Origin: a virus
Direction: 5' to 3' (one strand)
Length of the DNA stretch: 21,199 nucleotides
Virus record (IMG/VR): IMGVR_UViG_3300024346_000615
Location: 1-21,199 of that record
Part shown: positions 680-12,300 of the stretch, one piece after another
Numbering within the stretch: position 1 is the first letter of the stretch
Layout of the letters: every line of letters begins with the position of its first letter
Position numbers and translations under genes: made by a program
Notes under the pieces: generated by a model
Database searches by the model: none
What the model was told of the DNA's origin: nothing
The model's input: the letters and a program-made list of their open reading frames with translations, nothing else

Positions 680-708
680 ATTATAAACTATTATTGTATA
701 AATGTCAA
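680..708 (-). promoter_or_regulatory. Consensus sigma70-type promoter, proximal, driving the gp55-like gene
   Basis: On the minus strand, TTGACA (708-703) is followed after exactly 17 bp by TATAAT (685-680). Both hexamers match the bacterial sigma70 consensus perfectly. The expected start is near 673, about 20 nt before the ATG at 654, leaving room for the GGAG ribosome-binding site. It should be read by unmodified host RNA polymerase, which suits early expression of a late sigma factor. Confidence 0.8.
697..704 (+). promoter_or_regulatory. Possible late promoter motif (TATAAATG), first copy
   Basis: This octamer matches 7 of 8 positions of the T4 late promoter TATAAATA, which gp55 recognises. 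It points toward the structural operon and would start a transcript near 710, with a leader of about 68 nt before the ATG at 778. It overlaps the -35 box of the opposing proximal promoter by two bases (703-704). Chance occurrence is possible in such AT-rich DNA. Confidence 0.4.
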
Positions 709-717
709 CCAAAAATA

Positions 718-746
718 ATTATAATATACATACATAATTTTGTCAA
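718..746 (-). promoter_or_regulatory. Consensus sigma70-type promoter, distal, driving the gp55-like gene
   Basis: A second perfect minus-strand promoter lies 38 bp upstream of the first. TTGACA (746-741), a 17-bp spacer and TATAAT (723-718) give an expected start near 711. The two spacers differ from each other while both pairs of boxes are intact, which suggests the boxes are under selection. Its transcript would run through the proximal promoter into the same gene. Confidence 0.75.
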
Positions 747-754
747 CTAAATAG
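747..754 (+). promoter_or_regulatory. Possible late promoter motif (CTAAATAG) for the baseplate operon
   Basis: CTAAATAG contains the TAAATA core of the T4 late promoter (core at 748-753). With T4 spacing, transcription would begin near 759, just ahead of the AGGAG ribosome-binding site at 761-765 and the ATG at 778. The motif directly abuts the distal opposing -35 box (741-746). Geometry supports this copy better than the one at 697, although its upstream two bases differ from the T4 consensus. Confidence 0.45.
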
Positions 755-4958: not shown

Positions 4959-6350
4959 ATGTCAGAAGAAGATGTCGGCTTACCAGAAGAATCCGCAAAC
5001 AAATTAGACGAATCAAACTCAGTTCCGGTAACCGGCGAAGGTCCTTGGAAGAATTCTAATGATATGTGGACATTTCAAAACTTTGATGATCTAGAAGAAT
5101 ACGGTGGAGATATTATTAGTGGCGCCCCAGGTAGCAGCGCAACAGTAGTATTAGTTATTGATAATGAAGATCTTGGTCTTCCAAGTTATGAAAAAAACAA
5201 ACACTATTGGATTATAGAAAGTGCAGATTATGGTAATGCACTAAGCAACCAACTATATTTTCGACACAGTGTAGAATATTTTTCTCTTCTTATAGAAGAA
5301 GGTTCTGCAACTATGGAAGATTTTAAAACCGAATCAAATCTAGACTTTTTAGGTGCCGGAAGAAAAAAAGTTGATACATATCAAGGATTTCCTATTTATG
5401 TTAGAGATCCTGACATTAATGATAATCGCCCAGAAACAGAAACTAAATCTACAACTAGTGCAAAAACAGGAAATACAGTTACAACTACAACTGTATTAAA
5501 ACCTGGCACAGCTGGCTCTACAAAAAGTGAAACTACAACAGGCACGAAGCAATATGAACAAGTTACAGTTACAGGAGTTGATGCAGACGGATTTAGTTAC
5601 ACAGAGACAAAACTTGTAGAAATAGCACCAGATGGCTTGGCCCAGAGGCCGCCATCAAATGTAGATGCAACAGATCCACGCGGCAGAAATCAACAAAACA
5701 CACCTACACCTACATCTACATCTACAGCAGATCCATTAGATGCCTTTGGCGGAGCAGGAGATGCAGTAACACCTAGATCAAGAGTTCTTTCAGGTGCTGG
5801 CGGCAAAGTTGAATCAACAGGACCTGGTCCTTGTTTAGCGCAAAACGTAGGATTAGGAGCGGGATCTACTCCTCCTGCAAGTGTTCCATATCCTGATGCT
5901 ATTTTAAGACAAGCAAGAGCCGCTGCCGCTGCTCCTGCATCAGTAATACCAAATCCAGATGCAAACGATCCAAGAGGTCGAGATCAACGTAACACTACTG
6001 TTGCTGCAACAGCAACAGCACCTACACCAGTTACTCGACCGAGATCAGTAGTAACTTCTAGTTCATCTTCAGCAGGATCGCCACAAGCAAACGTATATAT
6101 ATACGAGCCAATAACGCCAGGATTTGATAGATATGATTTTAATACAGGAAAAAAAGTATACACACCAAATAATGGCGCAAGCAGAAATAATAATGGACAG
6201 ACTGTAACGCCGCCACAAGGACCTGTAACTACAAATACTCCTCCACCAGATCTTACAGTCATTCCGGCAGGAACAACTACAGGCGGTCCAAGTAGATTAA
6301 GACAACGAAGAGATAGCGAAAGAGACCCAAATCGGGTAGGAGCACAATAA
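4959..6350 (+). CDS. Thr/Pro-rich virion-operon protein of unknown function
   Basis: I do not recognise this 463-residue protein. AGGA lies 7 nt before the start and the gap after the hub-like gene is 4 nt, so it is translated within the baseplate operon and is probably a virion or assembly protein. Residues about 25-155 look like a folded domain with aromatic and acidic residues (GPWKNSNDMWTFQNFDDLEE, NKHYWIIESADYGNALSNQL). The rest (about 160-463) is low-complexity and rich in Thr, Pro, Ser, Ala and Gly, as in linkers or fibrous segments. Two internal repeats share the form N-x-DAxDPRGRxQxNT (residues 234-248 and 332-346). Residues 260-268, LDAFGGAGD, echo the tail of the preceding hub-like protein. 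The C-terminus is charged and basic. Lying between the hub and gp5, it may be a hub accessory or linker; that is inference. Confidence 0.55.
   Translation: MSEEDVGLPEESANKLDESNSVPVTGEGPWKNSNDMWTFQNFDDLEEYGGDIISGAPGSSATVVLVIDNEDLGLPSYEKNKHYWIIESADYGNALSNQLYFRHSVEYFSLLIEEGSATMEDFKTESNLDFLGAGRKKVDTYQGFPIYVRDPDINDNRPETETKSTTSAKTGNTVTTTTVLKPGTAGSTKSETTTGTKQYEQVTVTGVDADGFSYTETKLVEIAPDGLAQRPPSNVDATDPRGRNQQNTPTPTSTSTADPLDAFGGAGDAVTPRSRVLSGAGGKVESTGPGPCLAQNVGLGAGSTPPASVPYPDAILRQARAAAAAPASVIPNPDANDPRGRDQRNTTVAATATAPTPVTRPRSVVTSSSSSAGSPQANVYIYEPITPGFDRYDFNTGKKVYTPNNGASRNNNGQTVTPPQGPVTTNTPPPDLTVIPAGTTTGGPSRLRQRRDSERDPNRVGAQ
5658..5702 (+). repeat. DPRGR repeat, copy 1 (NVDATDPRGRNQQNT)
   Basis: This 15-residue unit at residues 234-248 of the Thr/Pro-rich protein matches the unit at 5952-5996 in 11 of 15 residues. 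DPRGR and the final NT are retained. The DNA has diverged at many third positions, so the duplication is old or selected at protein level. Confidence 0.6.
5736..5762 (+). repeat. LDAFGGAGD peptide motif in the Thr/Pro-rich protein
   Basis: Residues 260-268 read LDAFGGAGD, matching seven of the nine residues of LDAFGGIGA found twice in the preceding hub-like protein. At DNA level the first 16 bases (ttagatgcctttggcg) are identical to copy 1 at 4661, which hints at sequence exchange between the neighbouring genes or shared ancestry of their tails. Confidence 0.55.
5952..5996 (+). repeat. DPRGR repeat, copy 2 (NPDANDPRGRDQRNT)
   Basis: Second copy of the 15-residue unit, at residues 332-346 of the Thr/Pro-rich protein, 98 residues after the first. 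Both copies sit in disordered-looking sequence. Confidence 0.6.
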
Positions 6351-6351
6351 T

Positions 6352-8829
6352 ATGGCAAGCGGTAATTATACAAGAACTACTAGTTCTCAAACAAATGGCT
6401 TTAAAGATGCTGGTCCATACGAAGCAATTGTAGTTAATAATTTAGATACAAAGTATATGGGCGGCCTTGTTGTTGAATTATTAAGATACACAAGTGCAGG
6501 CGGCACTCCGGAACGTAGCGGGCAGTTATTAAATGTAAAATATCTAAGCCCGTTTTACGGAGTAACGCCTAACGCTGCACTCACAGCAAATGACGGTTAT
6601 GAGCATACACAAAAAAGTTACGGTATGTGGATGGTGCCACCTGATGTAGGAACAAAAGTTCTTGTAATATTTGCTGAAGGTAACTCTAACTTTGGTTATT
6701 GGATGGGTTGCATACCAGCAGAATATATGAACTTTATGGTGCCTGACGGCCGAGCATCTACTGAAAATACTACAGGACTAACTCCTCCTAGTTTAAGAGG
6801 AAGAAAAGTACCAACAGGTGAATATAATAAAGCAATTGAAACTGGCGCAAGAGTTGATCCGACTCTTTTTGCTAAACCCTACAATAAAGACTTTTCCGAA
6901 ACACTTGAAATACAAGGTTTACTAAACGACGAAGTACGAGGGACAACTACTTCTAGTGCAAGACGAGAAATACCTAGTATGGTATTTGGTATTAGTTCCC
7001 CTGGACCTAAGGATCGCAGAGCCGGATCGCCAACTGTAGAAATTGGAACTAGGGGCCAGAAAATTGCCACACCTTCGAATAGACTAGGCGGCTCGTCATT
7101 TGTAATGGATGATGGTGATGAAAGATTTGTTCGTGCAACGCATGCAGAAGATGGCCCACCAATTTATAAAAACAAAGGCGCAAACGAGTCAGGCGGTGAT
7201 AGAACTATTCCACAAAACGAATTATTTCGTTTAAGAACTAGAACCGGTCATCAAATATTAATGAATAATAGTGAAGATTTAATTTATATTGGCAATGCCC
7301 GAGGCACTACTTGGATAGAAATGACCAGTGATGGTAAAATTGATATCTACGCACATGATAGTGTTAGTATTAATACTGACAATGATTTAAACATTACTGC
7401 TGAACGTGATATAAACATGGAAGCAGGGCGAAATGTTAATATTAAAGCAGCAGGTCGTAGCAACACAGGCGAATCTGGCAGGGTACAGATAGAATCTAAA
7501 AATAACTTTAATTTAAATGTTGGCAAAGACAGCAAGATTACTGTAGGACAAAATCAACACATAAAAGTAAAACAATCTCAATATATTGATACTGCAAAAA
7601 GTTTACATATTAAAAGCGGACAAGACAACAGACTAACTGCTGGTGCATACACTCATATTAAAAGTGGCAAAGAACATAGAGAAACAGCAACATATGTGCA
7701 TATGAACGGCCCGGCTGCTGCCACTGCAAATCCAGCAAGCGAATCTCGACCATTAAGTGTAAACACGTTGCCAAAAGTAAAACCAGGAGGTCAAATATCT
7801 AGTTTTGAATCAATATTAACAAGATCGCCTCAACACGAACCTTGGCCACATCACGAAAATTTAGATCCCTTATCATTTAAGAAAATATTTACAGATAGAG
7901 AATCACCTGGAGGACTTCCTAGTTCTGATCGTGTACTTACACCTGATACATTTGCTAAAAATTTAAGCGGCAGAACTTCTAGTGCATTTGTTCAAGGCAG
8001 CGGCGGCAATGTTAGTACAGGAAATGCAAGTCGTCCTGGCGGCAATGGCCAGCCAAGTGTACCGCCAGGAGATTATAATAGTACTCATACATTTGATTTT
8101 AATATCGGCGCACTAAGCGAAAAATATGAATCTAAAGGCGATCCAGGAATAATTGGCTGGGATAGTACAGGCGGCTGGAGTTACGGAAAATACCAACTTG
8201 CAGCAAATACAGGTTCATTAAACGAATTTCATTCTTGGCTAGCAACTGCTTATCCTGATTTAGAATCGCAACTAGCAGCCGCTGGCGGCCCTGCTGCCGG
8301 AAGAGCCGGAACAGATGCATATAAAGCAGCCTGGGCACAAGTAATGGGGACGCCAGCAGGCGGCAATGCACAAAGTGAATATACAGCAATATCGTATTTT
8401 ACTCCGGCAAATAGATTGATCAATAGTGCAATTGGTCTTGATACTACAACACGGGCTAGAACAGTACAACAAGCATTATTTTCAACATCAATTCAGCACG
8501 GCGCAGGCGGCGCGAGGCGTGTATTCCGTGGAGCATTAGAAGGATTAGGATACCCGCCAAACGAAATAACTACAACAAATCCTACTGACGCAGCGTTAAT
8601 TAGAGCAGTTTATGCAGAACGTAGAGCAGGTAATGGAAGCAAGTATTTTCCAAGTAGTACACAGGCAATTAGAAATAGTGTTGTTAACAGATTTCATAAC
8701 GAAGAAGCAGATGCACTTGTAAGCCTACAACAAGAAATTGACGCGGCAAATGCTAATCCGCAAACAATGGAACCAACGGACGATGCATCGGCTACACCGA
8801 CAGTATCACCCCATGCTAATCCGCAATAA
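6352..8829 (+). CDS. 5: Baseplate spike with peptidoglycan hydrolase, gp5-like
   Basis: This 825-residue protein starts one base after the previous stop, with AGGAG 9 nt upstream. Residues about 22-125 look like the gp5/VgrG OB-fold (YGMWMVPPDVGTKVLVIF, YWMGCIP). Residues about 297-452 form a run of short alternating strands (IDIYAHDSVSINTDNDLNIT, NINMEAGRNVNIKAAG type), typical of the trimeric beta-helix needle. After a linker, residues about 583-785 resemble a lysozyme/transglycosylase-like hydrolase with KYESKGDPG and GGWSYGKYQLAANTG; Glu593 is the candidate catalytic acid. T4 gp5 (575 aa) places its lysozyme between the OB-fold and the needle, whereas here it follows the needle, and no separate lysozyme domain is evident in the middle. 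The protein should pierce the outer membrane and open the peptidoglycan during infection. The gp5 call is strong; the hydrolase class is tentative. Confidence 0.82.
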   Translation: MASGNYTRTTSSQTNGFKDAGPYEAIVVNNLDTKYMGGLVVELLRYTSAGGTPERSGQLLNVKYLSPFYGVTPNAALTANDGYEHTQKSYGMWMVPPDVGTKVLVIFAEGNSNFGYWMGCIPAEYMNFMVPDGRASTENTTGLTPPSLRGRKVPTGEYNKAIETGARVDPTLFAKPYNKDFSETLEIQGLLNDEVRGTTTSSARREIPSMVFGISSPGPKDRRAGSPTVEIGTRGQKIATPSNRLGGSSFVMDDGDERFVRATHAEDGPPIYKNKGANESGGDRTIPQNELFRLRTRTGHQILMNNSEDLIYIGNARGTTWIEMTSDGKIDIYAHDSVSINTDNDLNITAERDINMEAGRNVNIKAAGRSNTGESGRVQIESKNNFNLNVGKDSKITVGQNQHIKVKQSQYIDTAKSLHIKSGQDNRLTAGAYTHIKSGKEHRETATYVHMNGPAAATANPASESRPLSVNTLPKVKPGGQISSFESILTRSPQHEPWPHHENLDPLSFKKIFTDRESPGGLPSSDRVLTPDTFAKNLSGRTSSAFVQGSGGNVSTGNASRPGGNGQPSVPPGDYNSTHTFDFNIGALSEKYESKGDPGIIGWDSTGGWSYGKYQLAANTGSLNEFHSWLATAYPDLESQLAAAGGPAAGRAGTDAYKAAWAQVMGTPAGGNAQSEYTAISYFTPANRLINSAIGLDTTTRARTVQQALFSTSIQHGAGGARRVFRGALEGLGYPPNEITTTNPTDAALIRAVYAERRAGNGSKYFPSSTQAIRNSVVNRFHNEEADALVSLQQEIDAANANPQTMEPTDDASATPTVSPHANPQ

Positions 8830-9280: not shown

Positions 9281-9315
9281 ATTTAAAAATTAAATACACA
9301 CATTATCATTTCAGG

Positions 9316-9321
9316 TAAATA
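9316..9321 (+). promoter_or_regulatory. Possible internal late promoter (TAAATA) before gp6
   Basis: In the 64-nt gap between gp25 and gp6, TAAATA (context GGTAAATACA) sits so that a T4-type late start would fall near 9327. That is just before the AAGGA ribosome-binding site (9333-9337) and 18 nt before the ATG at 9345. The same geometry is seen with CTAAATAG at 747. The two preceding bases (GG) differ from the TA of the T4 consensus. Confidence 0.35.
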
Positions 9322-9344: not shown

Positions 9345-12300
9345 ATGTCTTCAAACGATAGACAGTCTAGGCTACTAATAGCAGAGGACTGGAAAAGAAT
9401 TTACCAAAGTTTTAGAAACGCAGATTTCCAAAGCTACGATTTTGATAACCTAAGACGCACAATGATTAACTATCTGCGTCAAAACTATCCAGAAAATTTT
9501 AACGATTACATTGAATCAAGTGAATACCTTGCGCTGATTGATATGATTGCTTTCCTTGGGCAAAACTTATCATTCCGTATTGATTTAAATGCTCGTGAAA
9601 ACTTCCTTGAAACAGCAGAACGTAGAGAAAGTGTATTACGTCTAGCACGTATGCTATCTTACAATCCTCGTAGAAACCAAGCAGCTAGTGGTTTACTAAA
9701 GTTTAACACAATTAAAACTACAGAAAGTCTTTTAGATTCAAATGGTTTAAACATGGCAGGCATTACTGTTAAGTGGAATGACCAAACTAACTCAAATTAC
9801 TTTGAACAGTTTACTAAAATTTTAAATTCAGCATTGCCATTATCTAACTCAATCGGTAATCCGTTAAAGAGTTCGTTAATTGCAGATGTTCAAACACAAA
9901 AATATCGCTTAAATGCTACAAATACAGGACAAGCAATTTATCCGTTTACTAAGCGCATTGAAGGTGTAAGTACACGCTTTGAAATTGTAAGTTCGGATAT
10001 TTTAGATCAAACTATTTTGGAAGAAGCACCGTTGCCTGGCAACAGTCCTGCATTTTTGTTTAGAGATGACGGCCAAGGTGCTGGCAGTACTAATACAGGT
10101 TTCTTTATGCACTTCCGCCAAGGTAAACTTGAGACAGGAAACTTTACAGTAAGTAACCCGACGCCAAATCAAGCAGTTCAAATTGATGCCGAAAATATTA
10201 ACGATAGTGATGTATGGTTGTTTGCATTAAACAGTGCAGGCTTTGAAGATAACGAATGGCAAAAGATTGACTCAACAGAAGGCAATAATGTTATCTATAA
10301 TAGTTTGTTTAATAAAACTAGAGATGTATTTGCAGTAACAACACGCATTGGCGACAGAATTAATTTAAACTTTAGTGATGGCGTATTTGGTAACTTACCT
10401 GCAGGCAATTTTAGAACATATTATAGAACTAGTTCGGGAGCAAGGAGTGTAATTACTCCGAGTGCAATAAGCACAGTGAGCATTGACATTCCGTATCAGT
10501 CAAAAACCGGATCTCAACACAAACTTACAATTGGTTTTACTTTAGATTATACAATTAATAATGGCACTGCAACAGAAACTAATCAAGAAATTAAACAAAA
10601 TGCACCTGCAACATATTATACACAAAATAGATTAATAAATGGTGAAGATTATAATATTGGTCCACTTGCAATTAGTCAAGATATTATTAAAACTAAGAGT
10701 TCAAATAGAATATCAAGCGGTATTAGTCGTTTCTTTGATCTAAAAGATGCCAGCGGAAAATATTCAAATACTAGTTTGTTTGCAGACGATGGTGTAATTT
10801 ATAAAGAAGAATTTGTCGAAAAACAATCATTCACATTTGCAACACAAACAGATATTGAAGGTGTTATATACAACACAATCGAAGGTATTTTAGACAGTGT
10901 TAATGCACAAAATTTCTACTTATCAAAATATCCAAAAATCATTGTTAGTGATCTTAATGCAACTTGGAATCAGTCCAGCACTAGTACAAATCAGTCATTA
11001 GGTTTAATACAAGACATTGATACTAATCCGTTTAATGTAGGTTCATTTACAGCAAATAGTTTACGTTTACTTGAAGCAGGGTCAATGTTAAAGTTTGTTG
11101 CTCCAAATGGTAAACACTTCATGCCAGACGGCACAATAATGGATGACGGAGATTCTGATCACCTAGGTAAAACTACATATAAATGGTGTAAAGTTGTGTC
11201 TGTTGTAGGTAATGGAACAGTAATCGACGAAGACGGTATTGCTCCCATAAAATTAAATGATGTTATTCCTACAACTGCAATATTAGAACAAATTATTCCA
11301 AATTTTTCTAAAACATTAATTAATGATGTAAAAGTAGAATTAATTGACCAAGCATTTGAATATAAAGATTTTGCATTAAGATATGATCAATATGACAGAC
11401 AATGGAAACTTATACTAGCAGAAAATATTAACACTCTTAGTAGTTTTGCTACTGGTAAATCAGGTGATATTACTGGTGAAAATCTTGATGCAAGTTGGAT
11501 GTTATACTTTAAAACAGATGGTGAAAAATATACGATTACATATCGAAATCTACGCTATGTAATGGAAAGTGCAGATGAAATTAGATTCTTCTTTGATGCC
11601 GCTGATAAAATTTATGATCCTACAACAGGACAAATTGTTAGAGATAAAATTGATATTTTAAATATCAATCGTAAGCCGGGAGAATTAACTCCGTTTACTA
11701 GAGACTTTAATTGGACTATTACAGATGCATATAGAGATACAGAAGGATATCTAGATAGCCGCAAAATACAAGTGCAATTTATTGATCTTGATGAAGATGG
11801 TGTAGTTGATGATCCTGATATTTTTGAGCAAATTGTTGGCGAAGAAGATAATAGTATTGCTACGTCAGCAAAACTTATTTTTCAAAAGAAATACACAACA
11901 ACAGATGGTGTAGAAGATTTTAAATATTTTGCAAATACTAATGCTGAAATAATTGTAATACAAAATGAAGCAGCAATTGCTCCAGTTAGTTCGCGTGAAG
12001 AAGGGCAAATATTTTATCTAATCGACGAAGGTGTGTTTAGGAAATTAAACAAAACACTTAACAACTCTGTTCTTAATACAGATTATAAAGCACATTTTGG
12101 TCGTGCAGATTTAAAATTCCATTACATTCACGTTGCTGATAGTGGCTATAGAATTGATCCAAGTGCAAGTAATATTATTGACACTTACATATTATCTAAA
12201 ACTTATGATACACAAGTTAAACAATATATTTCTGGAACAACTTTAATACAACCAAAACCACCGAGCAATGACGAATTGTTTAGAAGTTACGGTACTGAAA

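Follow-up and report, generated by a model that had tools for sequence, protein, structure and literature searches.

We consider it rather probable that a block of about 36 bp, located between the gene for a gp55-type late sigma factor and a baseplate operon, acts as a conserved, mutually exclusive divergent promoter, in which sigma70 would make gp55 early and gp55-polymerase would make the baseplate operon and shut gp55 off; activity, timing and shut-off are what we infer from the sequences. The evidence includes the arrangement of the boxes in one virus record, the conservation of this arrangement over a large set of gp55 loci, and its return at an unrelated pair of genes.

The gp55 locus and its promoters

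The stretch of DNA analysed (the window) is a 21.2-kb virus record, IMG/VR IMGVR_UViG_3300024346_000615, for which a nucleotide search against a phage collection gave no match. The first-pass annotation had assigned the minus-strand gene at its left end (1–654, cut by the window edge, with the start codon at 654 or 660) to gp55, and this assignment is confirmed. The gene product matches phrog_12791 with an E-value of 8e-58, and gp55 of the window type matches T4 gp55 (7d7c_F) with a profile E-value of 1e-7. T4 gp55 is also the best fold match of the gp55 model (Z 7.4, 118 residues, rmsd 4.6), and all chains listed in the fold search with this model (pLDDT 82) were sigma factors. By sequence and fold homology the product is a gp55-type late sigma factor, with a predicted promoter-directing activity. 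Homologues were found at 160 loci in two scans that used the gp55 protein only. The family gp55 has about 280 residues (full-length relative L002:5001–5846), which is roughly 100 more than the 185 residues of T4 gp55; the extra sequence sits before the sigma region-2 part.

On the plus strand, a baseplate/tail operon starts at 778 and fills the rest of the window, and the profile matches of its genes agree with the earlier description of the opposing operon as baseplate. The first gene (778–1650; phrog_12050, virion structural protein), which has AGGAG at 761–765, is followed by gp53-, gp5- and gp25-like genes. The long wedge-type gene after the gp25-like gene starts at 9345 and was named gp6 from its position. 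The gp5-like hub protein (6352–8826) has a VgrG3-type C-terminal domain (PF21277, residues 585–785), and a Thr/Pro-rich ORF of 463 amino acids within the operon (4959–6347) gave no match in the PHROG search.

Two sigma70 promoters of gp55, each with all 12 consensus bases (TTGACA-17-TATAAT), are present on the minus strand at 746–718 and 708–680. The distal promoter has its −35 TTGACA at 746–741, a 17-nt spacer at 740–724 and its −10 TATAAT at 723–718; the −35 and −10 of the proximal promoter are at 708–703 and 685–680, again with a 17-nt spacer. The plus-strand box CTAAATA (747–753), the predicted late-promoter −10 box of the baseplate operon, directly abuts the distal −35. Apart from the −35 boxes, the first-pass annotation had named the plus-strand motifs TATAAATG (697–704) and CTAAATAG (747–754), all of which are present at these positions. 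As single motifs they are not above chance: TATAAATR was observed 4 times in the window where 7.8 occurrences are expected, and CTAAATAG with one mismatch 20 times where 31.6 are expected. The probability of a late-type 7-mer abutting one given −35 is ∼0.002, and ∼0.04 when ten offsets and two promoters are allowed. The window alone thus proves little, and a comparison of loci was needed.

Conservation of the promoter block

The 160 gp55 loci had been fetched without reference to the promoter; when near-identical loci, and three whose upstream part was too short, were dropped, 123 non-redundant loci remained. A late-type box [C/A]TAAATA was found at 0 nt from the gp55 −35, or overlapping it by 1 nt, in 122 of the 123 loci. 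The junction reads TATTTAG/TTGAC in 106 loci and TATTTAT/TTGAC in 5, and TATTTA/TTGAC with one shared base (TATTTATTGACA) in 11; the sole exception is L275 (see below). The mean pairwise identity per column, taken over 121 aligned loci, was 0.88 for the late box, which is close to the values for the sigma70 boxes (−35, 0.93; −10, 0.97). The spacer reached 0.68, compared with 0.37–0.40 for the flanks and 0.40 for 31 four-fold degenerate sites in gp55. The distances to the genes vary (14–59 nt from the −10 to the gp55 start and 14–61 nt from the late box to the opposing start), with the box-to-box spacing fixed. Judged from these values, the geometry of late box and −35 is under strong purifying selection.

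The proximal promoter, on the other hand, is lineage-specific, being present only in the window and in L002–L009 (five non-redundant loci of the 123). The counterpart of TTGACATTTATACA of the window is, for example, TTGACACTGATACA in these relatives, and none of them has a late motif at the proximal promoter. The 2-nt overlap of TATAAATG with the proximal −35 was rejected as a real early/late element and attributed to chance, given the 4 versus 7.8 occurrences in the window and because the motif is absent in the nearest relatives that have the same proximal promoter. The earlier proposal that late motifs interlock with both early −35 boxes, for which conservation in related genomes had been suggested as a check, consequently stands for the distal site and falls for the proximal one.

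In 13 long records (70–169 kb) there was one best match to TATTTAGTTGACA each, located at gp55; the match was exact in 12 and read TATTTAGTTGACT in G004. Other perfect or strong sigma70 promoters in the same records do not have the fused motif, which makes it a single-site feature in these records, and TATTTAG as a general early-promoter element was ruled out. The phages with the fused motif at gp55 are a large family of mainly marine T4-like phages, and TATTTA[G/T]TTGAC can serve as a signature by which gp55 genes and early/late borders may be located in phages known only from uncultured material. A further strong sigma70-type promoter lies on the same strand about 0.9 kb beyond the gp55 promoter (G003:79285, G004:35927, G011:81571 and G005:96756) and probably serves the gene after gp55.

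Late promoters of the family

Enrichment of the late box was determined in twenty 20-kb stretches of long relatives, comprising 227 genes, for the region from −45 to −15. ATAAATA was found upstream of 29 of the 227 genes versus a mean of 4.4 in permutations of the same letters, indicating that the family has a T4-type late promoter, and the window box at 747–753 agrees with this motif. T4-type late promoters are recognised by a TATAAATA-like −10 box enriched upstream of structural genes, and the enrichment of ATAAATA agrees with this; the site at gp55 itself is CTAAATA, which was present at 3 upstream sites versus 1.8 in the permutations. In phage Aeh1 the late promoter motif is CTAAATA, beginning at −12 (PMC1524935). 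The gp55 site thus has the same C-variant as Aeh1, but in the present family C is the minority variant and is fixed mainly at the gp55 site. By analogy with the Aeh1 numbering, in which the 7-mer spans −12 to −6, the baseplate transcript would start near 759, which would place AGGAG (761–765) close to the 5' end of the mRNA. Since CTAAATA is the minority variant (3 sites against 29 with ATAAATA), the late promoter at gp55 may be a weak competitor.

Other late boxes, located about 5 kb from gp55 (L044:9865, L056:5279, L071:9807, L076:9916 and similar), have a short inverted repeat in front of them, TATCTACGAAGTAGATA being one example. The combination of inverted repeat and late box resembles a terminator plus late-promoter cassette.

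Proposed competition of two polymerases for one site

Sigma70 polymerase is expected to cover about −55 to +20 of a promoter and gp55-polymerase about −35 to +20. At the distal site this predicts an early complex at ∼691–766 and a late complex at ∼724–778, with ∼40 bp in common, and the two polymerases should therefore exclude each other, only one being bound at a time. The claim that the geometry at this site forces sigma70- and gp55-polymerase to compete is upheld by the abutting boxes and the overlap of the predicted footprints. In the mechanism that we propose, host sigma70 polymerase would read TTGACA-17-TATAAT on one strand and make gp55 early, and gp55-polymerase would read [C/A]TAAATA on the other strand, beginning where the early −35 ends, and make the baseplate operon. 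Early on, sigma70 complexes would restrain the baseplate operon; with rising levels of gp55 and assembly of the late machinery, the site would be taken over by late complexes and early initiations of gp55 would become fewer. The selection on box spacing seen in the aligned loci suggests that polymerase competition matters. A search of nine long records for MotA (PF09158) and AsiA (PF09010) gave no match; the control genomes gave none either, so that the result does not establish absence.

The consequences would differ between genomes. The expected footprint of the proximal promoter (∼653–728) barely meets that of the late complex, so occlusion at the distal site would leave this promoter largely free, and the self-limiting effect may be weak or leaky in the window genome. 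By far the most loci have just the distal promoter, and there occlusion would shut gp55 off more cleanly.

The nearest known logic is that of the A2c/A2b–A3 switch of phage phi29, where early (A2c, A2b) and late (A3) promoters have overlapping control sites and the p4 sites overlap the early −35 boxes (PMC3100819). In both phages early and late promoters lie together, and in phi29 one event, involving p4 and p6, turns the late promoter on and the early ones off. The regulators of phi29 are DNA-binding proteins, whereas the competitor at gp55 would be a polymerase bearing the sigma factor whose own gene is the early one; here, moreover, the boxes directly adjoin each other. Warman et al. (2026) have reported for E. 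coli that a bidirectional promoter strongly activated on one side can become repressed on the other through nothing more than competition between polymerases, and that promoters of basal strength do not compete (PMC12825309). The same logic, one binding event excluding the other, is proposed at gp55; the E. coli promoters are pseudo-symmetric, however, whereas here two different sigma specificities would compete. In T4, as in the present family, the late box is short, −10 only, and the sigma factor is of the gp55 type (PMC2988020); the cited part of this account describes no such layout at gene 55 of T4. Searches of the open-access literature yielded no account of a gene for a late sigma factor with its early promoter fused to a promoter that the gene product itself would use, and nothing usable on gp55 autoregulation or on expression in PA5oct. 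Explanations of how phages end the production of late sigma factor when its level suffices are rare; the conserved gp55 block offers a direct, testable answer, namely two holoenzymes competing for one site.

A putative upstream element within the sigma70 spacer

Selected positions of the 17-nt sigma70 spacer are conserved. In the late-strand reading, the 14 outer bases (724–737, plus strand) correspond to the consensus ATATACGCAGTTAA (ATATACATACATAA in the window) and form a putative upstream element of the late promoter. A profile of this motif, built from the gp55 loci, was moved across the sequence upstream of gp6, where no divergent gene is present. Its best score fell at exactly the distance from the late box known from gp55 in 22 of the 26 loci and one base off in 3. 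At this fixed position a score of >5 bits was obtained for 16 of 27 gp6 loci, versus 1 of 54 other late promoters and 0.1% of shuffled sequences. In the window this second late promoter (9292–9321, plus strand) consists of the upstream element at 9292–9305 and the late box GTAAATA at 9315–9321, and precedes gp6. In L275 the gp55 promoter has moved nearer to gp55; the old site has no −35 and −10, but the late box and GCGTAGTTAATTTT remain. Together with the gp6 sites, this single case indicates that the spacer motif goes with the late promoter.

From sequence comparison the spacer motif seems to be the upstream element of a sub-class of late promoters, those of baseplate genes, and to interlock with the sigma70 promoter over its full extent. 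That every late promoter has such an element was ruled out, as the motif is present mainly at the gp54-like and gp6 promoters and at 1 of the 54 others. T4 late promoters, which depend on gp55, gp33 and gp45, have no conserved −35 sequence in the cited part of PMC2988020, whereas the two baseplate late promoters of the present family have a common element, conserved in register at the gp54-like and gp6 genes. This suggests that, unlike in the T4 model, some T4-type late promoters have an upstream element.

The same motif could also be read by a phage DNA-binding regulator, which would bind between the −35 and −10 of gp55 (repressing or activating) and just upstream of the late box (activating), thus acting as a dual regulator, like p4 in phi29, and not through polymerase competition alone. 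Such a protein would account for the conserved positions of the spacer, for the equally spaced motif upstream of the gp6 late box in 22/26 loci and the motif near other tail genes, and for its staying with the late box in L275 after the early promoter had moved. However, no protein is known to bind there, the motif is missing from most of the family's late promoters (1/54 above 5 bits), and the UvdE sites described below show the abutment without it. We regard a dual regulator as possible but unlikely, and retain polymerase competition as the preferred explanation.

Recurrence at UvdE and the layout in cultured phages

Other phages have the fused motif in front of UvdE genes. A retrieval of UvdE loci that used the protein yielded 48 distinct upstream regions, of which 20 have a late box ≤10 nt from the −35 and one more has it at 47 nt. 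Most of the near boxes (17/20) are at the exact spacing seen at gp55, with 10 at 0 and 7 at −1. The spacers at these sites are unrelated to the gp55 spacer, and gp55 of the window type was not found in the records, most of them fragments, that have the exact fused motif at UvdE; the abutment thus recurs without the upstream element. In L370, L374 and L085 only about 5 nt separate the late box from the start of the gene opposite UvdE, and the late mRNA of this gene would start at the AUG (leaderless) if the T4 spacing holds.

The layout was further examined in 12 cultured jumbo phages. In all of them gp55 is divergent from the baseplate genes, with an additional nucleotidyltransferase gene in between in Atu_ph07 and Phosso, and a correctly oriented late box is present upstream of the gp55 promoter region. 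The gap between the late box and the best −35 is 2–6 nt in RaK2, PBECO4, GAP32, Munch, XaC1 and Hallingskeid, 11–28 nt in Vibrio 2.275.O, PA5oct, MIJ3, Atu_ph07 and SCTP-2, and 72 nt in Phosso, some of these values being uncertain because the −35 boxes are weaker. Atu_ph07, whose gp55 is ∼40% identical, has TATTTAGTTGACAAATTAACTAC, with a −10 that is not obvious; its gp55 as search query yielded no new relatives. The range of gaps indicates that the layout does not require exact abutment; exact abutment is typical of the uncultured clade, and the divergent layout is older. The presence of a related layout in jumbo phages of laboratory E. coli relatives makes it testable.

The gaps of 2–28 nt that related jumbo phages tolerate would also fit the view that two promoters, each needed for its own sake, were simply packed closely between the genes and passed on in this form, with no regulatory role. 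The intergenic regions are indeed short, and the one-base sharing (TATTTATTGACA) in 11 loci resembles packing. Packing does not readily explain why the inner distance is constant in 122/123 loci, in which neutral sites are near-saturated, when the outer distances differ by tens of bases, nor why the same exact spacing is found again at an unrelated gene pair (UvdE), and we think it improbable. That TATTTAG, which is AT-rich and directly upstream of the −35, is an UP-like part of the sigma70 promoter with an accidental likeness to a late box is very improbable, since other perfect sigma70 promoters of the same genomes do not have it, the variants still have the shape of a late box, beginning with C or A, its position relative to the opposing start codon is that of family late boxes, and L275 retains it though the early promoter moved.

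With competition between sigma70- and gp55-polymerase as the preferred reading, a more specific version can be put forward, tentatively and at less than even chances: a two-sigma bidirectional switch, in which a bipartite late promoter (upstream element plus [C/A]TAAATA) is wholly overwritten by a perfect sigma70 promoter on the opposite strand and the late sigma gene is turned off by the transcription that it enables. TATTTAG/TTGACA would then be a reusable module that arose also at the early/late border of UvdE. Searching with the motif itself, we also found it before genes for DNA polymerase B (L170:2313–2348), a primase-like protein (L134:3800–3835) and a glycosyltransferase-like protein (L111:1683–1718).
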